Source: Scheffersomyces stipitis CBS 6054
Lineage: Eukaryota; Ascomycota; Pichiomycetes; Serinales; Debaryomycetaceae
DNA: 64,000 nt
Assembly: GCF_000209165.1 (NCBI RefSeq)
Contig: NC_009044.1
Span: 1,054,001-1,118,000 of the forward strand
Direction: 5' to 3'
Position 1 is the first letter of the stretch; every line of letters starts with the position of its first letter. Under the pieces are notes generated by a model. The model was not told the DNA's origin, did no database searches, and worked only from the letters and a program-made list of their open reading frames with translations. The position numbers and the translations under genes were made by a program. Positions 2,740-50,881 of this stretch are shown here, piece after piece.

Positions 2740-4426
2740 TTATGTCTGAATGGCTGCAAATCCTGCATTCATAAAGTTTACGCATTGGATTAAAAATAGA
2801 ATATAGAATATGCTTTTAGGTTTGATATCAGCATATTCAACAGGATTCTCCAATAACGCTGTCTCGTTATTTTCAAGTTTCAATCCAGGCAAACCTGGTG
2901 TTGATACTGGGTTACAGTTCTCCATTCCAAACTCTTCTAGGATCTTATCAATATAATCCCCTAAGTCTGCTTTTATTCCATCACTCCCTTGAGTGATATT
3001 AATGCCTAGGAACTTCCTAGCTATTCCAAAATCTTTCATCTTGAACTGGGCACTCAACTGTCCCTTGATTTCTTTTATCTCATTCTGATTGTCTCCAGCA
3101 ATCAATAAATCATCGACATAAAGTCCAATGATCACACTTCTTCTCGTGTATAGTCCATACTCTGACAAAGACCTTTTAAAACCGATCTTCTCAAGGAAAC
3201 TATTCATTGTTTCATTCCATATCAATGGAGCCTGTTTCAATCCGTACAAGGACTTATTAAGCTGACACACCTTCTCAAAGGCACTACAATCCTGGTACCC
3301 AGATGGTTGCTTCATGTAGATCTTAAGATCAATCTTACCATTCAAAAATGCTGTCGACACATCCATCTGGTGTACCTTCTTTCCATACATGGCCGCAAGT
3401 GCAAGTAACAACTTGACACTCTCACTCCTAATTACTGGAGCAAACGTCTCTTTGTAATCAACTCCATATCTTTGTTGGAATCCTCTTACCACAAGCCTAG
3501 CTTTGTATTTTCCTCCGTCCTTGATGGTGTACACCCATCTTACTCCAAGGACCTTCGTTTTCTTTTCCGGGAGATCCACTAATGTCCATGTGTCATTTTC
3601 AGAATGAGCAGCCATTTCAGTATTCATGGCTTCAATCCATTTCTCAGCATCTGGAGCATTAATGGCTTCTTCGTATGTGTTTGGTACTTTCTTGCTCTCT
3701 GTAGATTCAACCGACATTTGATAAGCATGACCTTGGATGCAAATATTAGCTTCATCATATGTATCATCATTCGGATCATCGCTATTCGATTCTAAAATCT
3801 CGTTCCAAAACTCATTGTCATCTTCAATGTATTCATATCTCACTTTCTTTGTCATCTTCGTTGATGGCACTTTCTTTCTCTTGTTTCCAGTCCTCTGATT
3901 TTGGTCAGGACTTATCACTGGTGTCAATGAGTGTTTGGTGAGAACCTCACCCCCCGTAGAATCGGATGCGAGGAGATTAGATGGCATGCGTGCAAGTTCA
4001 GAGTCCGTGGAATCATAGGACAGAAGAGACGCAGCAGGGGACGAATGTAATGGTTGCAAATTGTGCGAAATAGATACAGGGGTCGCAGGAGAATCTTCCC
4101 TGTGCATATCAGGTGATTGTGCGCGTGAGTGATCGCTCGAGGAAGTTTCATGTTCATCACTTGAGATGTGTTCAGCTCGTGAAGTGGTGGCAACGTCTGA
4201 TGAAATGCGAGGGACACCGGACACGCCCATAGGAATAGTCGAAGCAGACGTAGTTGGCGCATGATCAGGTGAGTTTTCAAATGGGTAGATCGATTCATCA
4301 AACGAAACTTGATTGGAGCTAACTACTTTATGAGAATGTAATTCTTCTTTGAAGCCAACAATTGCTCTGAAGGAAACGAAATTGAGTAGTTGAACTTCAG
4401 GTGACGGCTCATAACCTGTTGAAATT
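2740..4426 (-). pseudogene. Copia pol relic (element B): reverse transcriptase, internally deleted
   Basis: The minus strand encodes most of a copia reverse transcriptase: WVYTIKDGGKYKARLVVRGF, then HQMDVSTAFLNG, SLYGLKQAP and the catalytic YVDDLL, ending in degraded sequence before the RNase H region. Gag, protease and integrase are missing. A gag start at 4439 reads only about 38 codons before a stop, and the pol frame begins in a different phase just beside it, so an internal deletion joined the gag start to the pre-RT linker. The left end stops at the LTR of element A, which probably inserted here. The RT stretch is still open for 496 codons from an internal Met (4230), so decay is recent or the fragment is young. 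It cannot encode a working element. Confidence 0.85.
4406..4416 (-). other. Primer binding site of element B
   Basis: Minus-strand GGTTATGAGCC, identical to the site of element A and complementary to the initiator tRNA-Met anticodon stem-loop. It directly adjoins the LTR of element B, fixing that LTR's inner border. Confidence 0.85.
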
Positions 4427-4863: not shown

Positions 4864-4991
4864 GTAACAACAGCATTCCTAGACTGAAAATTGACTTACT
4901 GGCATTCATGAGTCAACTAGATGCACTCAAGCAGGCGGCTAATGACTTTTTGAAAGTGTCCATTCTTATCAAGTTGCTGTGTGGTTAAAGC
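4864..4991 (+). pseudogene. Decayed copia RT fragment, left of the element C insertion
   Basis: The plus strand reads, with decay, a piece like the copia RT palm (DLLAFMSQLDA) and then KLLCG-stop-KQ, which continues across the element C target site into QPPMWDNT at 8656. Together these resemble the SLYGLKQAPxxWN motif. It is the upstream part of the relic resumed at 8656. B's LTR abuts it on the left. Confidence 0.6.
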
Positions 4992-5438
4992 TGTTGAGAT
5001 TGGAAATCTAGAGTAATCCAATAGATTGAAGTTTAGTTATATAACAAGAAACTGAGCGTGCAAGAAACTGCGAATGCAAGAAATAATATTTCAGATTAGA
5101 AGCATTATTCAGAAACGCACAGGTTGCAAATTAAGCCGCACTGATGTGCAGGCAACTCTGAGGTATAAAAGAAAGCTGAAATCCTCAAAGTCTTGAAAAA
5201 GTTTATACGTTTATAATTAATCAATTTACGATTCATTTGAGGGAGGTTATTCTAGAGATGTAGAGAATAACATATTGAACAACTGTAGGATACGCTGTAT
5301 CCATATAGACAAGTTGCGCGCCTTGTTTAAACAGTTGTATCAAGATAAAGAAGAAGACAGACAAATTACAACATGGATAGGCAATCAAGAGGTCTACATA
5401 AACTAGAGTCCATCATATCAACAATTCACATTTCAATA
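4992..5438 (+). repeat. Left LTR of element C
   Basis: 447 bp with termini TGTTGAGAT and ATTTCAATA, so it ends in TA rather than the usual CA. The target duplication and the adjoining primer site fix both borders. It contains a TATAAAA box at 5164-5170, the probable transcription start region for the genomic RNA, and a GTTATTC/GAATAAC stem at about 5247-5271. Confidence 0.92.
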
Positions 5439-5450
5439 GGTTATGAGCCC
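5439..5450 (+). other. Primer binding site of element C
   Basis: GGTTATGAGCCC starts at the first base after the LTR and is complementary over 12 nt to the initiator tRNA-Met anticodon stem-loop. It shares its first 11 nt with the sites of elements A and B, evidence that all three use the same priming machinery. Confidence 0.88.
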
Positions 5451-5889
5451 TGTTAGTGTCTGCTTTTACTGTCATCCTTCGATATTGCTCTAGTCTTTGA
5501 GCAGATCGTTGGCTTTCTGTCCGTTTGCTGAATTCGGTTGATGTGGAAGTGTTTTTCTATCCATGTTGATATCATGTGGCGTTTCATTCACCCCTTCTGC
5601 TTGTGAAAATTTTTCTTTCTCTGTGTGGCTCATTTTGCTCCATCTCCAGTGCGATTTCATGTGCGATACCCATGTCCTGTGTGTAAGAATGAATCTATCC
5701 GGTTAAATTCTATTCGTCCTATTCCTGTGTCAAATACCACAAAGAGTTCTAGTCACTTTGTCCTGTTTTCGATGCTTTCGATGTTTTTATATATATACAG
5801 AGATTATAATCTGTGTAGTATTACGGTGAGGTATATTGCCGAATACCAAGAATCCGAGCTTGTTGTTCTCTCATTTGTTTGACGAGATC

Positions 5890-6760
5890 AATTAATACTT
5901 GTCCCGAGTGACATTCTACTGATTGACAGCCTACCGAGGCTGATATCTACTTGTCCCGAGCGACTGCTTCTTATTGACGGCCCCCTTGGCTGCTCTCCAC
6001 TTGTCCCGTGCGACATCTTACTTATTAACAGCCCTCTGGCTGATCTCCTCATGTCCCGAGCGACATCTTACTTATTGACAGCCCTCTGGCTGATCTCCAC
6101 TTGTCCCGTGCGACATCCTACTTATTAACAGCCCACTGGCTGATCTCCTCATGTCCCGAGCGACATCTTACTTATTGACAGCCCTCTGGCTGATCTCCAC
6201 TTGTCCCGTGCGACATCCTACTTATTAACAGCCCACTGGCTGATCTCCACTTGTCCCGAGCGACATCTTACTTATTGACAGCCCTCTGGCTGATCTCCAC
6301 TTGTCCCGTGCGACATCCTACTTATTAACAGCCCACTGGCTGATCTCCTCATGTCCCGAGCGACATCTTACTTATTGACAGCCCTCTGGCTGATCTCCAC
6401 TTGTCCCGTGCGACATCCTACTTATTAACAGCCCTCTGGCTGATTCTACTGGTCCCGAACGACTACTTCTTATTGACGGCCCTCTTGCCTGATCTCTACT
6501 AGTCCCGAGCGACATCATACTTCTGAACGGCCCTCTGGCTGCTCTCTACTAGTCCCGAGCGACTACTTCTTATGGACGGCCCTCTTGGCGGATCTCTATT
6601 TGTCGCGAACGACATCTTACTTATTAACAGCCTGCCGAGGCTGCTTCCTTCTGGTCCCGAGTGACTACCTACTGCCCACTATCTTGGCTGATTCCTTCTG
6701 GTCCTGAGTAACTAGTTTTTGACAATCCACTGACTGATTCTCGTTAGTCCTGTGTGAATA
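5890..6760 (+). repeat. 50-bp tandem array inside element C, about 18 units
   Basis: A GTCCCG-type core recurs at 5901, 5953, 6003, 6053, 6103, 6153, 6203, 6253, 6303, 6353, 6403, 6452, 6502, 6552, 6602, 6654, 6701 and 6747. Nine consecutive cores (6003-6403) are exactly 50 bp apart and alternate between two variants (GTCCCGAG / GTCCCGTG), making a 100-bp higher-order repeat. Units diverge towards both ends. Each holds two dyads, GTCCCGWGCGAC and CAGCCCTCTGGCTG. Weak traces continue to about 7250. Confidence 0.93.
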
Positions 6761-6950
6761 GTTGCTATTGTTAGTCACTTGTGACTATGCTGCTAGTACT
6801 GTAGGACCATTTACTGTGGGTGACGAGTAATTACTTCCTGTCAGCTCTATGTGACCATTTGCAGTGGTCGTTCCCATCTGTTTACTGCAAGCTCATAATG
6901 GTTACTTGCTTTCGGTCTGTTATTACTACTTACTATTATTCCTTTGCGAC

Positions 6951-6999
6951 TAGTTATAGAAGACTGCCACTATTTATTGATGCTAGTCTTCTATAACTA
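6951..6999. repeat. 15-bp perfect inverted repeat in element C
   Basis: TAGTTATAGAAGACT (6951-6965) is the exact reverse complement of 6985-6999, with a 19-nt spacer. It is the strongest of several hairpins in the element's RNA. Confidence 0.9.
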
Positions 7000-7634
7000 T
7001 ATCATCTGATATGAGAGATCCCCGAGTGTTCTCCTATTATTTATTGCTGAGCCTGCCGTGGCTCCCTACTGTAGTCCGTTACGACTACCTCTCGTCTTAC
7101 CCAACAAACTTGGGTATTCCTTCTGTATTTTAAAGTGACACCCGGTCATTCTTAATTCTTTTACGATTAATTGCTACAGTCTACTGTGACTGTATTCTCT
7201 GTATTCTGCGAGAAACCTGATTGTGTTCTCGCTTACCTAGAATGATACACTCGCAGTCATTCCATGGTTGCGGTGGTATTTGGAACCTTATGTCGCGTTC
7301 CATTTAACCTACAATATGGTGCTCCGAGAGTCCATATTAACCATATGATTCCACGTCAGTCTGTTGGGCCCATGCAGTCTACGTGTATCATCTGAATTAC
7401 TTTCTACTCCAAATTCAAGGAGTATCTGCTAAAGATAGCAACCCTATTCTCGAATATAGAATAGTATGCGCTGTTATAAAATCTGCACAAGCGGTGCAGT
7501 ACTCACCGGTTCTGATAAGAAACATGAGTCTATGTTCTGACTGAAACTATCATCACTACCTTTATTTACTGTGAGGATGATAGTGAACATTGCGTGTGCA
7601 AACTACAAATCTGTGAATTACGAATGTTGTACTT

Positions 7635-7653
7635 TTAGATTATGGGGGAATGT
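7635..7653 (+). other. Internal copy of the polypurine tract region of element C
   Basis: TTAGATTATGGGGGAATGT is repeated exactly at 8193-8211, where it forms the 3' polypurine tract and the LTR start. The internal copy could act as a second, central plus-strand primer, as in Ty1, or be the start of an older partial LTR copy. The following bases resemble the LTR only weakly. Confidence 0.75.
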
Positions 7654-8199
7654 GAATAGATTGCTGTTCTAATCCAAGAGTACTTGATTACACAGTTGCC
7701 CTTACAAAATGTGTAAGAGTAAAATGAACGACTATTAGATTAAGAGCAGGAGTATTGAACATTGGAAATATCAAATGATCTAATCTAATAGTAATGTTGA
7801 ATTGATTCATCGTTAGATATGGTTATGTCTACAGTGTGCCGTACACACAAATAACCTCATTCTTATATCTACATTATACCATACTAACATCGTTATCGGA
7901 TATAATGTTGATCTCGATAATCACAACACAATGTGGGTATCCTACCCAACAACAATATGACCATCACGTAAGTGATGGAATACTACTCCTGGATGAAATT
8001 TAACAGGAAATTTAAGAAATAATCACTAGTGATCAAGATGCTCCAAATGGAATCTGAAAATAAGGACTATACATCACGAAGATTATTACCAGTCTATCAG
8101 GAAGTGCAAAGAGTGAAAGTTCACAAATACTTTCAAAACAGATGCTACTGATTTGAACTAAGAGCTGGATCAGATGCAAACTTCAATAACCATTAGATT

Positions 8200-8208
8200 A
8201 TGGGGGAA
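8200..8208 (+). other. 3' polypurine tract of element C
   Basis: ATGGGGGAA lies directly before the TG that opens the right LTR, the expected position of the plus-strand primer. Confidence 0.85.
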
Positions 8209-8655
8209 TGTTGAGATTGGAAATCTAGAGTAATCCAATAGATTGAAGTTTAGTTATATAACAAGAAACTGAGCGTGCAAGAAACTGCGAATGCAAGAAA
8301 TAATATTTCAGATTAGAAGCATTATTCAGAAACGCACAGGTTGCAAATTAAGCCGCACTGATGTGCAGGCAACTCTGAGGTATAAAAGAAAGCTGAAATC
8401 CTCAAAGTCTTGAAAAAGTTTATACGTTTATAATTAATCAATTTACGATTCATTTGAGGGAGGTTATTCTAGAGATGTAGAGAATAACATATTGAACAAC
8501 TGTAGGATACGCTGTATCCATATAGACAAGTTGCGCGCCTTGTTTAAACAGTTGTATCAAGATAAAGAAGAAGACAGACAAATTACAACATGGATAGGCA
8601 ATCAAGAGGTCTACATAAACTAGAGTCCATCATATCAACAATTCACATTTCAATA
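8209..8655 (+). repeat. Right LTR of element C
   Basis: 447 bp, with no difference from the left LTR that I could find. TATAAAA at 8381-8387. It is followed by the AAAGC target duplication. Confidence 0.92.
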
Positions 8656-9436
8656 AAAGCAGCCTCCAATGTGGGACAACACAAAAAGTGCGTTTCTTGA
8701 AAAGGTGAGGTTGTTAGGTCATAGGCTGAATTCAGATCATACAAAGGAACACCATGACTGACTTATAGGTCGATGAGTTATAGACAGCAAGCAGTATTAA
8801 AAATATTGCCAATTCCATCAAAGAAATGTTAAAGAAATAATTAGAAATGAAAGACCTCAGTTTTGCCGAGGAAATCCTAGGTATTAACCATCAATCTGAA
8901 AGGGCGCATTTGGGGGACTATATGGTATGATGGTGGAAGAATTCTCTATGGAAGATTGCAACCCTGTAGGATTTGCTAAAATTCCTAACCTTCAGCTCGA
9001 CAAATCAAGATGCTCGACCACCTTCAATCTACAGATCTATTGTTGGAAGGTTACTATAGACTAGAAAAATCATTAAGAGAGACATTTATTTCACAACTAC
9101 ATTGCTCAGCCTGCATTTCCAGAATCCCAGAAGAGTCATCTAGTTGCAGCAATTCTCCGTTACCTTGAAGGAGCAAAGAATGTGGTACAGGTGTATGTCG
9201 ACTCATACTGATGCGCTTCGCTGTCTGATAGAAATTCAGTAATTGATTGTGCAATTTGGTTTGGATTAGTCTAATCCATGGAAATCGAAGGAACAGCAAA
9301 AAGTCACATTACTTACAGCTAAGTGTATATAGCTCTTGCCGAAGTAATCAGGGAGTTTCTCTGATTGGTTTCTCTACTTATGGAATTTAATATTCATATA
9401 AATCTACCACTATGGTGGTATCAACTCTACAGATTT
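8656..9436 (+). pseudogene. Decayed copia RT/RNase H, right of the element C insertion
   Basis: Fragments in changing frames follow the order of a copia pol: KQPPMWDNTKSAFLEKV, then FAEEILGIN, HLGDYM, EEFSMEDCNPV, PESQKSHLVAAILRYLEGA and finally YIALAEVIREFL, the RNase H segment. Stops and frameshifts are frequent. EEFxMExCNPV and HLGDYI-type motifs also occur in element B, so it is a related but much older copy, in plus orientation. Element C split it. Confidence 0.8.
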
Positions 9437-10915: not shown

Positions 10916-11070
10916 TTTTATTCTGAACAGCGACCGGAAATGGTTCAAACCATCCAGTCACAATTGTTAATACTAGTGCCCGGAATTGGCTCAAACTAGA
11001 CCCCGAAAAGTACTCATACCAGCTATTGGAGATTTTTAATACCACTCAAAGAGATTGTTAGCACAGACTA
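10916..11070 (+). repeat. Left inverted repeat of the Tc1/mariner-like element
   Basis: Contains GCGACCGGAAATGGTTCAAA, CCCGGAATTGGCTCAAACTA, CATACCAGCTATTGGAGA and TCAAAGAGATTGTTAGCAC, matching the reverse complement of 12215-12345. Confidence 0.75.
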
Positions 11071-11206
11071 GGGGGTTGAATTTCTAGCAGCTAACGGGAA
11101 ATCCTATAATGCAATAGCAAACCTCCGCTAAGTTTGAATGCAAAATGAACTTCCCTATGCACTCTATTCATATACATTTTTGTAAATTTTATGCTTTCTC
11201 AGATCA

Positions 11207-12187
11207 TTAGAAAAGCTTCTCTTCCAAACATGATGTCTTGACTTTACTTTTGCATACCGACCAAAACTCTTCGATAGCATTCGAGCTAGGAGAATATGGA
11301 GGCAAAAACACAAGTTGAAGTCCACTCAGAGCAACTAGCAGTTGCATATCACAGCTTCTGCCGTTATCAAGTATTTCAAGTCTCCTAACTCAGGGTTTTC
11401 TTTCACTTCTTGAATGATAGACTTGATGAAGTAATATAAGTGGTTCGCTGTGGTGGCTTTGCGATACATTCTTACCTCCGTCAAGTTTTTTCTTTTTATA
11501 GGACGCTGCTGGTTATTACAACCTTGAGGAGATATTGCACCAAGAAATGAAGCGTTGAGACCACGAGTCACAGGGACAGTAAAAGTTGCCTTTTCAACCA
11601 CTGGTGACCGGCCATATTTATGTCTCATGCTGATGTTAAATCCAGCTTCATCTAAAAAAATGCAGTTCAGGTTAAAATCAAGCCTGTATCTATATTTATT
11701 TGCCCATTGAAGGCTTTCTTGTCTGAGTTCACAGACTTCTTGTCCACTTCGAAATTCTTTTAAGACTGAAAAAGACCTTGGTTACGAAATTATATACTTT
11801 AGAAGCTTCGTATCTTACATTCCCGAAAGCTTGTTTGAGACCCTTCAATATGTCGTCAAGAGTTACAGTTGCGTTTTCTCTTACCATGGTTTGCACAAAC
11901 TCCTTATGTTCATCTGTGAGGAGTGGTTTAGGACCACGCTTCTTTGGCTTAGATGTCTCGCCATTCTACTCATCGACAACAGCCTTATTCCAATTCCTTT
12001 TCCACGTGTAAAAAGGAATGCTTCGCTGCCCTGTATGCTGAAACGCCTTCTTCACAAACCATTTCCCGAAGTCTTTCCTTGGTAGTGTTATCGTAATGTC
12101 TCTGTAGGGCGCTCTGCTGTGTTTACTGGCTACAGTTTCTTCAAAAAAGTTTTTTGATAGACCAATTCTATTATATTTTAACCACAA
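11207..12187 (-). pseudogene. Tc1/mariner-type transposase, broken
   Basis: Three pieces in different phases make up one DDE transposase. The N-terminal part includes a basic RGPKPLLTDEHKEFV segment of the HTH region. The middle has the first catalytic Asp in IFLDEAGFNISMRHKYGRS. The end has DNGR with the second Asp and LPPYSPSSNAIEEFW with the catalytic Glu. LPPYSPxxNPIEEFW is typical of the family. The frame is broken by a stop at 11966-11968 and by frameshifts near 11755 and 11365, and no ATG is seen at the start. It cannot make an active transposase; it may still be a fossil source of the repeats around it. Confidence 0.85.
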
Positions 12188-12214
12188 GACAAATAAAATT
12201 TTATCTTAGCTGGA

Positions 12215-12345
12215 TAGTGTGAACAATCTCTTTGACTGGTATTAAAAATTTCCAATAGCTGGTATAAGTATTTTTCGGGATTTAGTTTGAGCATTATGAC
12301 CGGATGATTCCAACCATTTCCGGTCGCTATTCCGAATATAAAATG
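12215..12345 (-). repeat. Right inverted repeat of the Tc1/mariner-like element
   Basis: Its reverse complement reads GCGACCGGAAATGGTTGGAA, then CTCAAACTAAATCCCGAAAA, ATACCAGCTATTGGAAAT and TCAAAGAGATTGTTCACAC, matching both other copies. Confidence 0.75.
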
Positions 12346-26055: not shown

Positions 26056-26631
26056 ATGGTTTTCGGATTCGGCAAGGACAAGGACGACGACGACAGATCG
26101 AACAGAAGAGACGATAACAACGACGACTCGTACGGATCTTCTAACAGAGGTAACAGCGACGATTCTTACGGTTCTTCCAACAAGGACTCTTCGTACGGAT
26201 CTTCTGGTTTCGGTTCTTCCAACAGAGACAACGATGACTCCTACGGCTCTTCCAAGAAGGATACCTTCGGCTCTTCTGACGACTCATACGGTTCTTCTAA
26301 AAGAGGTAACAATGATGATTCTTACGGTTCTTCCAACAAGGACTCTTCGTACGGATCTTCTGATTTCGGTTCTTCCAACAGAGGCAACGATGACTCCTAC
26401 GGCTCTTCCAAGAAGGACACCTTCGGCTCTTCCAAGAAGGACACCTTCGGCTCTTCTGACGACTCATACGGTTCTTCTAACAGAGGTAACAATGATGATT
26501 CTTACGGTTCTTCTAACAGAGGTAGCAATGATGATTCTTACGGTTCTTCTAACAGAGACGACTCTTACGGTTCTTCTAACAGAGACGACTCTTACGGCTC
26601 TTCTAACCGTGACAACAGTGACAGATATTAA
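26056..26631 (+). CDS. DDR48: Ddr48-like repetitive hydrophilic stress protein
   Basis: 191 residues, almost entirely repeats of D-S-Y-G-S-S with variable spacers (NRG, NRD, NKD, KKDTFG). A short unique head, MVFGFGKDKDDDD, precedes them. Ser-Tyr-Gly-Ser-Ser-Asn repeats define yeast Ddr48, a heat- and DNA-damage-induced protein with reported ATPase/GTPase activity; the C. albicans protein is of similar length. Nearly identical DNA blocks recur (26155-26250 versus 26307-26400), so the repeat number is probably variable between strains. The STRE-rich promoter supports stress control. Confidence 0.85.
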   Translation: MVFGFGKDKDDDDRSNRRDDNNDDSYGSSNRGNSDDSYGSSNKDSSYGSSGFGSSNRDNDDSYGSSKKDTFGSSDDSYGSSKRGNNDDSYGSSNKDSSYGSSDFGSSNRGNDDSYGSSKKDTFGSSKKDTFGSSDDSYGSSNRGNNDDSYGSSNRGSNDDSYGSSNRDDSYGSSNRDDSYGSSNRDNSDRY

Positions 26632-44751: not shown

Positions 44752-45036
44752 TGATGGAAAATAAGATACAGGATCTCTAATAATGGTTTCCGAGGTGACC
44801 AACCTCGGATTGGATCCGATAAATATCCGAAACAGAAATTCTACATTTCTTTTGTTGAATAACGCAACAAACTACAGAGATGAGATGAGGATGAAGAATA
44901 TATAAAGCCCAGAGGATTCCCTCTAGTTTAAACAGATTTTAAATAGTTCTTCAGTGATTAATATAACTCCATATCCATTAATCCATTTCTAAGTCCAAAA
45001 GGAAAACCGGCCTACCCATATACAGGTTTCCCGTCA
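44752..45036 (+). repeat. 5' LTR of element D
   Basis: 285 bp from TGATGG to CCGTCA. TATA-like ATATATAAAG at about 44898-44907. A CCGAGG/CCTCGG dyad lies near 44789-44807. Identical to 50597-50881. Confidence 0.95.
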
Positions 45037-45047
45037 GATTAGAAGTC
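45037..45047 (+). other. Primer binding site of element D (half tRNA-Arg UCU)
   Basis: GATTAGAAGTC directly follows the LTR. Its complement GACUUCUAAUC has the form of an anticodon stem-loop with anticodon UCU (loop CUUCUAA, closing GA/UC), so the primer is probably a tRNA-Arg cut in its anticodon loop. As I recall, Tca2/pCal of C. albicans uses the same kind of primer. Confidence 0.75.
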
Positions 45048-45079
45048 AAAATTGCAACCATTTTTAAGCCAACCCAAAA

Positions 45080-46285
45080 ATGTCCTCCACTTTAGCTGCT
45101 GAAGTTTACGACAAGTTCGAAAATGAATTCGTTGATTGTCAATCTCCAACTGAACCCAAGGCCTTGACTGATGAATCATTAGTCCCTGTCCTGAAGGGTG
45201 AGTTTGATAAAAAATTCAACGAAATCGACGAAAGGTTCAATGAGGTAAACAAAAACCTTACGAACTTAATTAACAAGCTTAATCTCGGAGAAGTTCCAAA
45301 CAAGGAACCAAAGGGTAAGGAAAAGGCTGATGCTACAAATGCTGGTAATGGATCAGAGTCCCAATCAGATTCGGAGTCATCGCTGGATTCTGACGAAGAC
45401 CTGCTGGAAAATATTAACACTCCTATATCCGAGACCCTTGAAAGAGGTAAGGGATATAGTACTTCGAATTCTAAAGAAGAAATTAGAAGGTCGGTATGGA
45501 GACTAATTGATAAATATGAAGACCAACTTCAAAAGTTGCCAGAATTGGATACAAGCCCTGAGACTATAGCCAAGTATAAGACCACACTCAAACGCGTCTA
45601 CACTCGGATTCCGCCATTAAAGGAGATCGTATTGAATGACTTTAACCTCAAATCAACCTCAAAAGATACGGTTTTTCTTGACGGTCATAGTACAGCCAAT
45701 AAGGTATACTTCTATAAATTAGTGGCCGAAAATATAGCAAGTATCCTAAGCGAAAACACAGCAACAGCTTTTGAAAACGAAGCTGGAAATGTTACATTGA
45801 AGAAAATCATCGGATACATCGAAACTCACGATGGTAATGATTGTTCAGCACAGATCATTGAATATATCAAGAAGTTTAAAAAGATCGAAAGACTCACCAA
45901 TACTTCAGATATTGAGAATCATCTTGTACGTATAACTTCCGTTACCGATCGTCAGATTACCCAGTTCTTAAAAACATTAAACTCCCGCGATGCTATTGCC
46001 TACTTCATATATGTCAACAACAGTAACGAATCAAATGTCAAAGCTTTAGGTAGACAACTAAATGAACAATACCAAGCTTTTAAAAATGATTCATCAAAGG
46101 TTGCAGCTCCACTCAGACATACATTTCTTAAAATGAGATCCGATTCAAATTTTATTGATATGCCTCTGAATTCGTCGGATAAACAACTTCAAAATAAGAA
46201 AAGTCATACACATGGATACAAAAAGAACCAAAATTACACTGAATCACAAAAGAACAGTGGAAATAAGAACTTCGCCAACAATTAA
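45080..46285 (+). CDS. Gag of element D
   Basis: 401 residues, ending at UAA (46283-46285). N-terminal coil-like region (KKFNEIDERFNEVNKNLTNL), an acidic Ser/Asp linker near 95-115, then a mostly helical body from about 125. The end is basic and Asn/Lys-rich (KNQNYTESQKNSGNKNFANN). No CCHC zinc knuckle is visible, unlike element A; the basic tail may bind RNA instead. It forms the virus-like particle. Readthrough of its stop would give Gag-Pol. Confidence 0.88.
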   Translation: MSSTLAAEVYDKFENEFVDCQSPTEPKALTDESLVPVLKGEFDKKFNEIDERFNEVNKNLTNLINKLNLGEVPNKEPKGKEKADATNAGNGSESQSDSESSLDSDEDLLENINTPISETLERGKGYSTSNSKEEIRRSVWRLIDKYEDQLQKLPELDTSPETIAKYKTTLKRVYTRIPPLKEIVLNDFNLKSTSKDTVFLDGHSTANKVYFYKLVAENIASILSENTATAFENEAGNVTLKKIIGYIETHDGNDCSAQIIEYIKKFKKIERLTNTSDIENHLVRITSVTDRQITQFLKTLNSRDAIAYFIYVNNSNESNVKALGRQLNEQYQAFKNDSSKVAAPLRHTFLKMRSDSNFIDMPLNSSDKQLQNKKSHTHGYKKNQNYTESQKNSGNKNFANN

Positions 46286-46307
46286 TGGTTTGGTGGTCAC
46301 CCAAATC
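46283..46307 (+). promoter_or_regulatory. Probable stop-codon readthrough site, gag/pol of element D
   Basis: UAA (46283-46285) is followed after one base by GGUUUGG (46287-46293), a 7-nt loop, and CCAAAUC (46301-46307). These pair over 7 bp with one G-U. Gag and pol are in the same phase, so suppression of one stop joins them. A stop with a structure just downstream is the arrangement in Tca2 and in murine leukaemia-type viruses, though spacing there is usually longer. Confidence 0.65.
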
Positions 46308-49300
46308 GTCAAATCTTTTACTTAGGTGACGAACCACTGCTGTCAAATGTACTATTTCTATACGATTCAGGTTGTTCAAGAACGTGTGTTAATTCCACAA
46401 AATTATTGCATGATATAACCTATGAGCCTAAAGGCCAAGGTACATCATTTCGTGTTGCTGACGGAAGAACCGTACGAGCTATTGCAAAAGGTACGCTTGA
46501 CATACATCTAGACCCAAAGGTATCTATCTCCAACGTTATGGTCGTCCCTGAAATCTCTTGTAATCTCATATCAGTTGGCCAACTACTTGAACAAGGATGG
46601 ACAACCGTGCTCACAGACGACGGAGCCTATATTGCCAATAGTGAACACATGCTCAAAGTTGCTAATAGAAAGAATAATCTTTTCATTTCTAAACTTTCTG
46701 CCAAAAATAATATCGAATCACTTCATTTTTTTGAAGAGGAATATTCCACAATACATAATATTCCTGCTGAAGTTGCCGAACTACACGGCCCCCAAGACTG
46801 GTTTTATCACCATCTACAATGCAGTCATATGGCAATTTCAAATTTACAATCCCTTGCAAAAATGGGATTTATTAAGGTAGTTGATACGGAAGAGAGTATC
46901 CGTAGGGTGAAAGAATGTCGCCTATGTCACGCCGTGAACATTAGACAAGCATCACATAACCACACCACCCAAAGACCTGCCACACGTCGGTTAGAAAGAG
47001 TTAGTAGTGACACGATGGGACCCTTCCTCATCGGCCACAAAAAATACTTTATCACTACACTCATTGATCATTTCTCCCGATTTACCGAACTTATCTTTAC
47101 ATCTCATAAGCAAGTCATGGATGATGTTCTCCTTCTCTTGCACATATGGAACAATAGATTTCCAGAAAGGATAGCGCATTTTAGAGCAGACAATGCCAAA
47201 GAACTACCTGACACCGAACTGCTTGCCAAACTTGGCATAAAACGAGATAAGATTGCTAGCTACTCTCCGGAATTGAATGGACTTGCTGAATCCCACAACC
47301 GTACGATCTTGCGAAATATATACAAGATTATCCTTCAATTTCCGAATTACACAGACAAGGTTCTTTGTCTTTTTGACCACATCATTGAATATGTGCTGTA
47401 CATTAAGAACCATACGCCCAACAAGGCTCTCAAAGGTAGGACTCCTTATGAAGTCTTTAATAAGCTCGATGCATACAGACCGACATATATTCAATTTGGC
47501 TTGGACGTGTCAGTTAAAGCATCTTCGCCAGAGGAATTTAAAAAATTGCATATTCCTCTACCCAATGCACCAGCTAATCCAAATAATAAGCAATACCCGA
47601 TGACATTCTTTGGTACTTTTATTGGTTTCTGCGAAGACAACTACACATATAAAATCCTCGTCAGTACGAAAAACTTCCCAGTTATTCAGACAGTAAATGT
47701 CAAGTTCATGAGTTCCATGGCACATATTAACTCATACTTCAAATCGCTTGATTTCTCTCAAATTCAGGAGGCGAACGAAGTTAAAGCGACCTTGAATGCC
47801 CAAGTCGCTGCTGCTCAATTTAAACTTAATCAAGAAGCCCATGACTATGATACTTTTGAATCCGTTCGACAGGAAAATGTACCTTCCACATCAGCGGGCA
47901 TCCACGAAAAATCAGCCGTGATGACCCGTGGTATTTCAGAAGCAAGGAGGGATCCGTCGCCCACGGATAATTGTTCAACTGATCCTCAACCCTCTTTCCT
48001 GATCTTAGCCAAGAAACATCCCGAAGTGTACACGAACGTTACTAACAAATTTCCTTGGATGACAAATCCTGAACATCCAAAACCTATTACTACTACAGAT
48101 AAGACTCATAGAGAGAGCACGAGCACTGCAATTAATTCGTCCACATTAGTGGGGGGGACAAACGTACGAATACCTACCCCAGTCAATAAACAGGTAGCTC
48201 CTGTATCCGGAGAGGATATCCAGAGAGATACTCCACTGGGCTATAAATCCGACTCAGGCATAACTTCTACTCAAAGAGAGCAGAAGGCTGATGAAACCAA
48301 ATATGAACTCATTAATGAAGATGCACCCGTTGCAACATTAAAAGAATCTCAAAATCCTGCCTCAAAGCAAATTATTGTTAAAGATCATAACAATAAAAGC
48401 GATAATGCAAATGATAAGCACATCCCAGCTGCAATTGAAATTACCGAACTCAATTCAGATACGAAATCGTCTAAAGACACTGGTAACGTCAAGACGAAAC
48501 ATGGCATTGTTCAACCGATTGACAATCAAGGGGAGAGCACAACTATCAAGAATGAGCCAGAGATGATTCAAGCACCTTCAAACAGAGACGTCCGAGCTTT
48601 GAAACGTCAAAGAATGCAAGAGGGACTCACACCAGAACCATCAGTTAAATTAAAGCGGTCACCCAATTTTACTCCGGAAAGTAAGACACTTAAAACAAGG
48701 ACAAAGACGCATCCGGGCCAAAAGAGCAGCGTCTATTCTGTATCAGCTAAAACTAAAACTGATACAGAAGGGGGCGACAATAAAAGACAGAGGAAAACAT
48801 CACCAGACTTCCTGAGTATAAGCACAATCAACCTTATGGCCAGTTTGATTGAGTCTAGATCAACTGACGTATGTACAAATATCGAAGGTGCACATTGCTT
48901 ATTCTCATTGATCGATCAAATTGAAGAAGACTCGGATGATTTACCAATCAATGTTATAAATGCTGTTATCGAAAACATTGATTACAACGATAAAAATTGG
49001 ATAGAATCCATGGATCGTGAAATAGACAAATTCATTAAATTGAACGTTTTTGAAGTCGTTGATATTCCGAAAGGCAGGAAAGCCATATCCACCAGATGGG
49101 TACATACATCTAAGGATGGAGGAATAAAAGGCGTTAAATACAAAAGCAGATGTGTCGTTAGAGGTTTTCTACAACAACCCGGCCGGGATTTCGATCCATC
49201 AAAAATATCATCCCCCGTTGTAGACCTATTGACCATCAGATTACTAGTTTCTATTGCCACCACTAACAATTATATTATCCACCAGCTCGATATTGAATCT

Positions 49301-50590
49301 GCGTATCTAAACGCGCCATTATCGAACAATGAGCCAATCTACATCCGTCCACCGAAAGGATACGAATTGCCAAAGAATAAATGCTGGTTGGTTAAAAAGG
49401 CAATATATGGTATGCGACAAAGTGGGTACGAATGGTACCACACATTACTCAAGGTTATTCAAAACTTCGGTTTTGAGGAATCATCATTCGCTTCAGGATT
49501 GTTCCACAAAAAGAACAAAGGTGACATAATCATCATTGCTGTTTATGTTGATGACTTATTCATGGTGTCATCAAGCGAAAGGATGCTTAAAGAATTCAAA
49601 CGAGACCTACAAAAGCATTTCGACATGAAGTACCTTGAAGAAATCAAGGAATACCTTGGGGTTAAATTTCATAAGACCGAGAACGGTTATATTATGTCCC
49701 AGACAGAATACTTACAAAATATTGTAAAGCAATTCAAACTTGAAGAATCATATGGAAAGTATATTCCAATGATCAAAGACAAGTCGAAGTACAATAATGC
49801 ATCCACCACTGTTAAAGATCACTTTATCGAGGACAATCCGATAAACAACCAAACATTATTGGATGCAAAAGGTAAAGAGCTATATCAAAAGGGAGTAGGA
49901 TTATTGCTTTGGGCAAATCGAAATACTCGTCCTGATATATCTTTTGCTGCCAATCAGTTGGGTAGCAAAGGTGCCAACCCAAATATAAATGATTTTCAGA
50001 AATTATTATACTGCATTCGTTACCTCAAGCTGAACATAGATTATGAATTAAAATATGAGAGCAACCAATCATCAAACAAGAAATTAGATTTTAACATAGT
50101 TGCTTACACAGATGCTTCCTTCGCTCCAGAGAAGGATAGAAGATCAATTACTGGAAATGCCATTTATCTCAACGGACATTTGGTTAGCTGGACCACTAAA
50201 CGTCAACATAACATTACTACAAGTTCTGCTAGTTGCGAATTGGTCGCTTTAAAGCTGACTGCAGAGACGTCGATCCGTATAAAGAACATCTTAAGAGAAC
50301 TTGGATTCATAGTGTCAAGCGTACAAATCTATGAAGATAATCAAGCTGTAATCGCCAATTGCAAAAACGAAAATATCTCCCATAGTAGGAGAATGGTGGA
50401 CATCGATATCAAATTGTTGAGACAATTGATTAAGGATAAAGAAATCCTACTTGACTATGTCAAGACATCAGTAAACACGGCTGACATGTTTACTAAAGCG
50501 CTATCTAGAGCGCAATTTATTACTCTTAGGGATCATCTAGTTTCCAATGTCAGAAACGCTTCTACATTTGATTCACGTACAAAGCGTTAA
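46286..50590 (+). CDS. Pol of element D (PR-INT-RT-RNase H), readthrough product
   Basis: 1434 sense codons in the gag phase after the UAA; the first internal ATG (46406) lies after the protease active site, so it is not the real start. Protease: FLYDSGCSRTCVN. Integrase: zinc region HHLQCSHM...CRLCHAV, catalytic SDTMGPF, RADNAKEL and SPELNGLAESHNR. A long, low-conservation linker (about 47800-48900) precedes RT with RWVHTSKDGG, HQLDIESAYLNAPL and YVDDLF. RNase H: AYTDASFAPEKD, SASCELVAL, YEDNQAVI and DIDIKLLRQLI. The order PR-INT-RT makes it Ty1/copia. No disabling change seen. Confidence 0.92.
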   Translation, partial: WFGGHPNRQIFYLGDEPLLSNVLFLYDSGCSRTCVNSTKLLHDITYEPKGQGTSFRVADGRTVRAIAKGTLDIHLDPKVSISNVMVVPEISCNLISVGQLLEQGWTTVLTDDGAYIANSEHMLKVANRKNNLFISKLSAKNNIESLHFFEEEYSTIHNIPAEVAELHGPQDWFYHHLQCSHMAISNLQSLAKMGFIKVVDTEESIRRVKECRLCHAVNIRQASHNHTTQRPATRRLERVSSDTMGPFLIGHKKYFITTLIDHFSRFTELIFTSHKQVMDDVLLLLHIWNNRFPERIAHFRADNAKELPDTELLAKLGIKRDKIASYSPELNGLAESHNRTILRNIYKIILQFPNYTDKVLCLFDHIIEYVLYIKNHTPNKALKGRTPYEVFNKLDAYRPTYIQFGLDVSVKASSPEEFKKLHIPLPNAPANPNNKQYPMTFFGTFIGFCEDNYTYKILVSTKNFPVIQTVNVKFMSSMAHINSYFKSLDFSQIQEANEVKATLNAQVAAAQFKLNQEAHDYDTFESVRQENVPSTSAGIHEKSAVMTRGISEARRDPSPTDNCSTDPQPSFLILAKKHPEVYTNVTNKFPWMTNPEHPKPITTTDKTHRESTSTAINSSTLVGGTNVRIPTPVNKQVAPVSGEDIQRDTPLGYKSDSGITSTQREQKADETKYELINEDAPVATLKESQNPASKQIIVKDHNNKSDNANDKHIPAAIEITELNSDTKSSKDTGNVKTKHGIVQPIDNQGESTTIKNEPEMIQAPSNRDVRALKRQRMQEGLTPEPSVKLKRSPNFTPESKTLKTRTKTHPGQKSSVYSVSAKTKTDTEGGDNKRQRKTSPDFLSISTINLMASLIESRSTDVCTNIEGAHCLFSLIDQIEEDSDDLPINVINAVIENIDYNDKNWIESMDREIDKFIKLNVFEVVDIPKGRKAISTRWVHTSKDGGIKGVKYKSRCVVRGFLQQPGRDFDPSKISSPVVDLLTIRLLVSIATTNNYIIHQLDIESAYLNAPLSNNEPIYIRPPKGYELPKNKCWLVKKAIYGMRQSGYEWYHTLLKVIQNFGFEESSFASGLFHKKNKGDIIIIAVYVDDLFMVSSSERMLKEFKRDLQKHFDMKYLEEIKEYLGVKFHKTENGYIMSQTEYLQNIVKQFKLEESYGKYIPMIKDKSKYNNASTTVKDHFIEDNPINNQTLLDAKGKELYQKGVGLLLWANRNTRPDISFAANQLGSKGANPNINDFQKLLYCIRYLKLNIDYELKYESNQSSNKKLDFNIVAYTDASFAPEKDRRSITGNAIYLNGHLVSWTTKRQHNITTSSASCELVALKLTAETSIRIKNILRELGFIVSSVQIYEDNQAVIANCKNENISHSRRMVDIDIKLLRQLIKDKEILLDYVKTSVNTADMFTKALSRAQFITLRDHLVSNVRNASTFDSRTKR

Positions 50591-50596
50591 GGGGAG
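50591..50596 (+). other. Polypurine tract of element D
   Basis: GGGGAG between the pol stop and the TG of the 3' LTR; plus-strand primer. Confidence 0.85.
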
Positions 50597-50881
50597 TGAT
50601 GGAAAATAAGATACAGGATCTCTAATAATGGTTTCCGAGGTGACCAACCTCGGATTGGATCCGATAAATATCCGAAACAGAAATTCTACATTTCTTTTGT
50701 TGAATAACGCAACAAACTACAGAGATGAGATGAGGATGAAGAATATATAAAGCCCAGAGGATTCCCTCTAGTTTAAACAGATTTTAAATAGTTCTTCAGT
50801 GATTAATATAACTCCATATCCATTAATCCATTTCTAAGTCCAAAAGGAAAACCGGCCTACCCATATACAGGTTTCCCGTCA
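50597..50881 (+). repeat. 3' LTR of element D
   Basis: 285 bp, no difference from the 5' LTR found. Followed by the AGATT target duplication and, 191 bp later, the RPT6 start codon. Confidence 0.95.

Follow-up and report, generated by a model that had tools for sequence, protein, structure and literature searches.

A noncoding LTR retrotransposon of Scheffersomyces stipitis centromeres, with predicted mobilization in trans and LTR homology to a telomere-facing subtelomeric block

The window analyzed here, a 64,000-nucleotide stretch of the Scheffersomyces stipitis CBS 6054 genome (NC_009044.1, positions 1,054,001 to 1,118,000 of the forward strand), contains at positions 4992-8655 a complete retrotransposon of 3,664 bp bounded by long terminal repeats (LTRs). 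This element is very probably a copy of the noncoding large retrotransposon derivative (LARD) of S. stipitis centromeres, and the sequence comparisons provide good support for reading it as a LARD that would be mobilized in trans. The two LTRs show no differences between them, and the target site duplication (TSD), AAAGC, is read directly from the flanks GGTTAAAGC and AAAGCAGCC. The primer binding site (PBS) is complementary over all 14 nt, across the anticodon stem and loop, to three genomic tRNA-Met(CAT) genes, taken here as initiator-Met. The structural features put forward in the original prediction (identical 447-bp LTRs, the AAAGC duplication, an initiator-Met primer site and a polypurine tract, PPT) were all confirmed, exact to the base.

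No coding sequence was recognized between the LTRs. With reading frames translated under the CUG-Ser code and measured stop to stop, the longest interior frame spans 91 amino acids (aa), a length reached by 201 of 300 dinucleotide shuffles (shuffle mean 101 aa). A tblastn search of the element with the long frames of the three autonomous families described below (a, b and c, one copy each) returned a single 25-aa match (E 0.25); in the control, a and c frames matched the b interior with E 0.0. The proposed lack of Gag and Pol was confirmed. Gag-Pol, a feature of the Ty5-like group (Pseudoviridae), is missing from the element, as expected of a non-autonomous partner, and we therefore file it as a LARD and not as a Ty5-like element proper.

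A search of the genome (15,441,179 bp in eight contigs, C1 to C8; all counts of genome matches are lower bounds) yielded at least 41 LTR matches, comprising 18 near-full copies, 5 partial copies in clusters and 18 partial copies within about 10 kb of contig ends. All 18 near-full LTRs reside in or at the edge of clusters rich in RVT_2 matches, on seven of the eight chromosomes, and none was found on C6 in this search; the RVT_2 search itself gave 62 matches, which form a dense cluster on every chromosome, with further copies scattered elsewhere. Twelve of the near-full LTRs form the pairs of six complete elements (two on C4 and one each on C2, C1, C8 and C7) and the other six are single, with a TSD in two cases (C8:290935 and C8:329025) and none at the borders taken in four. 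A separate 5-bp TSD flanks every complete copy (AAAGC, TGAAA, TGAAG, TACGT, GCTAG and GTACG, the last given on the + strand of C1), and the LTR pair is identical in all six; the PPT was read in five of these copies and its 14-mer was found in the sixth (C1). Pairwise differences among the five full-length copies range from 0 to 9 of 3,664 positions, the window copy being identical to the C2 copy. All three private LTR variants among these five (one in the copy at C4:1044518, two in the C1 copy) are present in both LTRs of the carrier, a mark of reverse transcription from one RNA. The remaining copy, on C7, has 431-bp LTRs (a 16-bp deletion) with CAAAA for CAATA in both, and an interior shorter by 100 bp. 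The TSDs, the LTR identity and the near-identity of copies bear out the proposal of a recently mobile unit, and the copy count suggested as a check on it now stands at six complete elements and 18 near-full LTRs.

All complete copies are inserted into other Ty5-like sequences. The window copy interrupts decayed c-like pol, the C4:1044518 and C2 copies lie in family c, the C8 copy in family a and the C7 copy in family b, and the C1 copy splits an RVT_2 domain in two. The copy at C4:1044518-1048181 is nested in a family-c element whose own LTRs (361 bp) are identical, and it is thus younger still. At the other end of the age scale, decayed relics of the interior are found at C5:667628-668377 (72-80% identity, with a short piece from 667613 at 68%) and at C8:327989-328337 (61%), and relics of the LTR at C4:1033008 (80%), C3:1419524 (84%), C3:1457235 (79%) and C2:1668852 (68-71%). 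Relics of the interior at 61-80% identity indicate that the noncoding sequence is old and not a recent deletion product; an ancient autonomous element may once have carried it. An old family-b LTR directly borders the C5 relic, and family-b-like sequence is found some 0.5 kb away from the C8 relic.

In the mechanism that we propose, RNA would start in the 5' LTR and be packaged, initiator-Met tRNA would prime reverse transcription at the PBS, the plus strand would be primed at the PPT, and integration would produce a 5-bp duplication, with the proteins coming from an autonomous Ty5-like element (Tps5) resident in the same genome. These proteins would also account for the centromeric addresses of the copies. 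The original prediction had likewise called for copying in trans, and we likewise infer a supply of Ty5-like proteins in trans. All 18 near-full LTRs found are accounted for by six noncoding pairs and six single copies. Three points weigh against the assignment to the centromeric LARD. Identity with the LARD of Coughlan and Wolfe 2019 is judged from its cited description; the 2,770-bp interior is below the size rule for LARDs (>4 kb) given in the excerpts of PMC9033089; and the LTRs terminate in TA (five complete copies) or AA (the C7 copy), not in the usual CA found at the ends of those LTRs of families a, b and c that were inspected. These non-CA ends nonetheless sit between regular 5-bp duplications, and the integrase evidently accepts them.

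In the centromeric stretches read (C2, C4, C5, C7, C8 and 10 kb of C3), LTR elements comprise the present element and three families, named a, b and c and taken as Tps5a-c. The stop-to-stop lengths of their long frames, in the copies that were read, are 1,419, 1,842 and 1,524 aa, respectively. The six elements of these families with inspected borders have a TGTTGA start, an 11-nt PBS and a PPT context of ATTAGATTA- or ATTGGATTA-type. The present element has all three in common with them, as well as the 5-bp TSD and the centromeric site, and differs from these families in that they encode long frames and their LTRs, which terminate in CA, show no sequence relationship to its own (best matches E 0.35). 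By DNA comparison, homology of its interior to a, b and c is confined to the PBS and to PPT or PPT-like sites, some PPT-like sites inside the element matching the c and a PPTs. The PPT recurs 558 bp inside the element, where its 14-mer is present in all six complete copies, and a family-a-like version of the PPT occurs at window position 7734.

These shared ends bear on the identity of the helper. The PPT 14-mer TTAGATTATGGGGG occurs 17 times in the genome (reversed control pattern, 0): 12 sites are in the present element (two per complete copy), four at annotated family-c ends or remnants and none at annotated a or b elements. The remaining site, C6:908350, is in an unannotated cluster next to a 1,532-aa RVT_2 frame; the RVT_2 frame of the family-c copy annotated at C2:1682902 has the same length. 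This distribution points to c rather than a, and over 22 nt across the PPT-LTR junction the element has one mismatch with c, three with b and four with a. Family c is thus, by its PPT, the likeliest helper, with roughly an even chance of being the actual one. Family a, which we understand to be the Ty5-like element A favored in the original prediction on the basis of its primer site, is a considerably less likely candidate. It does have the 11-nt PBS, and RVT_2 frames of 1,428-1,429 aa, the length found in the annotated family-a copy, occur at several places; however, the PBS is equally common to b and c, family a is the most divergent at the PPT-LTR junction, and the 14-nt PPT was not seen at any annotated a element. 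The choice of A as the specific helper was therefore not upheld. In viral contigs, no exact match to the PPT-LTR junction was found.

A separate observation concerns the PBS of family c. At C3:1424263-1428154, an internally deleted family-c element has its LTR and a 14-nt tRNA-type PBS joined to mid-interior sequence. The 14-nt PBS is present at two rearranged family-c junctions (C3:1424624 and C5:656216), compared to 11 nt in the elements read, as if copying had extended further along the tRNA; for C5:656216, microhomology explains the junction equally well.

Among other explanations for the element as a whole, its domestication as a working part of the centromere (e.g., as a centromeric noncoding RNA, ncRNA, or a Cse4-loading sequence) seems improbable to us. 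It would agree with the confinement of near-full LTRs to centromeric clusters, with a debate in the literature over Ty5-like LTRs as centromeric sequence (PMC12711049, in excerpt) and with an interior rich in inverted repeats. The inverted repeats at 6633-7640 exceed those of 60 shuffles (z 7.4 on stem bp), but the same is true of the coding interiors in families a, b and c (z 4.1, 5.7 and 2.9; 20 shuffles each). Comparison of the stem pairs with the decayed C5 relic revealed values at the null in every class (unchanged pairs, 113 vs. 110; one-sided changes, 19 vs. 18.5; double changes, 3 vs. 4.5; broken pairs, 51 vs. 53), and the hairpin chain is therefore not claimed as a function. For one hairpin of the 50-bp array, 34 of 46 outer pairs fit, compared to 22 when shuffled, a level reached by 0 of 2000 shuffles; on the 8 distinct unit types, a fraction of 0.096 of shuffles fit as well. 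The 5' leader fold is unremarkable (z -1.06), and an Rfam search gave no match. Against domestication stand the hairpins without compensatory change, the failure to find a near-full LTR on chromosome 6 and the different numbers in different isolates described in the excerpts of PMC8546629.

Still less probable, and for the families examined mostly refuted, is an origin of the element simply by deletion of gag-pol from an autonomous element that still exists. Such an origin would be consistent with the PBS and PPT context common to the element and a, b and c, as well as with the occurrence of internally deleted elements in this genome (the family-c case on C3). It is opposed by an LTR unlike those of a, b and c, by the lack of interior homology, by DNA or protein, beyond the PBS and the PPT or PPT-like sites, and by the diverged relics, which show an old sequence. 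Full-length relatives with the same LTR and intact gag-pol, named at the outset as the finding that would reduce the element to a deletion derivative, were sought across the genome with a negative result: every one of the 18 near-full LTRs found is in a noncoding pair or single. We also considered C5:657181-668377, where a LARD LTR, then an RVT_2 frame and then a LARD-like interior occur in succession, as an autonomous element with this LTR and rejected it; the annotation resolves this region into a single LARD LTR in a c fragment, an a element, b fragments and a decayed LARD relic. Finally, spread of copies between centromeres by recombination or gene conversion in place of retrotransposition, which would suit repeat-filled clusters, the identity of the window and C2 copies and the four single LTRs without a TSD at the borders taken (suggesting recombination at some sites), is very hard to reconcile with the private variants in both LTRs of a copy and the separate TSDs of all six complete copies. 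A trans-mobilized LARD thus remains the preferred reading.

An additional finding concerns the LTR of this LARD. Its nucleotides 163-352, starting just before a TATA-like sequence, are 68-80% identical to a subtelomeric block, as aligned with five stretches in addition to the C4 start; the match includes neither LTR end. LTR matches occur within 2 kb of 13 of the 16 contig ends, with a fourteenth (C5 start) 9.5 kb in, and the subtelomeric repeat bearing the block was matched across it within 1.6 kb of all 16 ends, oriented toward the contig end in every case. Telomere repeats were seen at the three ends read (the C4, C7 and C1 starts, with a 24-nt unit at the C4 start), and the remaining ends are taken as telomeric. 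The block was not seen in the a, b and c LTRs or in the LARD interior when these were compared with three contig ends. Shared descent of LTR nt 163-352 and the telomere-facing block is well supported by these alignments. The LARD may have acquired its promoter from a telomere-facing one or may itself have supplied a promoter to the chromosome ends, and a putative promoter so placed would transcribe into telomere repeats. The further idea that common descent is accompanied by joint regulation, with centromeric LARD RNA and TERRA-like telomere-directed RNA forming one ncRNA circuit, is speculative and, in our estimation, rather unlikely. Literature searches, mainly of titles and abstract openings and including one aimed at this point, turned up no report of LTR-subtelomere homology; this apparently unreported homology links two chromosome domains.

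Table 1. Coordinates of the element, its parts and its insertion site in the window
Feature	Position	Strand	Remarks
TSD, left copy, AAAGC	4987..4991	.	
5' LTR, 447 bp, TGTTGA...TCAATA	4992..5438	+	identical to 3' LTR; 18 near-full genome copies
LTR nt 163-352, TATA-like GAGGTATAAAAG and downstream, homologue of subtelomeric block	5154..5343	+	68-80% identity
PBS GGTTATGAGCCCTG	5439..5452	+	complementary to 14 nt of tRNA-Met(CAT)
Noncoding interior, 2,770 bp	5439..8208	+	
Tandem array, 50-bp unit, about 14.7 copies	5897..6632	+	
Chain of 14 non-overlapping short perfect inverted repeats, stems 6-15 bp	6633..7640	+	without covariation support
Second, internal copy of the PPT, TTAGATTATGGGGGAATGT	7635..7653	+	
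PPT ATTAGATTATGGGGGAA, abutting 3' LTR	8192..8208	+	
3' LTR, 447 bp	8209..8655	+	
TATA-containing block of 3' LTR	8371..8560	+	alignment made on 5' LTR; LTRs identical
TSD, right copy, AAAGC	8656..8660	.	
Target, left half, decayed family-c-like pol	4864..4991	+	72%, c interior 3392-3518
Target, right half, decayed family-c-like pol	8669..9387	+	69%, c interior 3530-4314

Several other features were observed in the window. Two 76-nt inverted repeat arms (89% complementary, separated by 1,152 nt) lie at 10989-12292 and enclose broken frames, one with a DDE_3 match over the cut-off (E 9.5e-10) and one with a weak HTH_32 match under it, as well as two unmatched pieces; this region looks like a decayed DNA transposon of the Tc1/IS630 type, although no DNA transposon is reported for S. 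stipitis in PMC8546629. An LTR element of the chromosome arm, complete and bounded by a pair of 285-bp LTRs, occupies 44752-50881; identical copies of its LTR are found at many places on C1, C4 and C8, and the sequence following its 5' LTR differs from the initiator-Met site. Repeats with 156-bp spacing are found at 26073-26554 within a 191-aa frame. For a PMS1-like protein neighboring the LARD, the best named relative is from S. xylosifermentans (59%).

With respect to known systems (cited here from excerpts), the element type is already known. Noncoding, non-autonomous LARDs at S. stipitis centromeres, in numbers that differ between two isolates, are described in PMC8546629, citing Coughlan and Wolfe 2019 (Yeast 36:275), and the suggestion of a new non-autonomous family is not supported. 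Tps5 clusters were used to place S. stipitis centromeres (PMC8546629), and three Tps5 families are described in these clusters (Coughlan and Wolfe 2019, as cited in PMC8546629 and PMC12711049). The published LARD and the present element are alike in being noncoding, LTR-flanked, non-autonomous and located in centromeric Tps5 clusters, and the published set of three autonomous families and one noncoding one is the same as found here; no difference was noted in this comparison, made by description. Among plants, LARD and TRIM elements are likewise non-autonomous LTR elements moved in trans (PMC9033089), although by the size rule of that review the name LARD would not fit here.

A close counterpart, likened by description, is Ty5.L of Wickerhamomyces anomalus, a distantly related yeast that belongs to a different order from Scheffersomyces (PMC12711049). 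Both are centromeric and consist of an LTR pair around noncoding DNA (2.4 kb in Ty5.L vs. 2.77 kb here), and both have the initiator-Met PBS, called diagnostic of Ty5-like elements in the same source, in common with autonomous Ty5-like neighbors whose LTRs are unlike their own. Ty5.L is considered to be probably moved by the proteins of these neighbors, and the trans-copying argument of the original prediction matches this published reasoning. Overall, the S. stipitis LARD is a clear example of a parasite of centromeric Ty5-like elements that has no genes of its own, with near-identical young copies alongside old relics. It offers a yeast in which the identity of the helper can be tested, and the presence of Ty5.L in a distant yeast suggests that this arrangement recurs.

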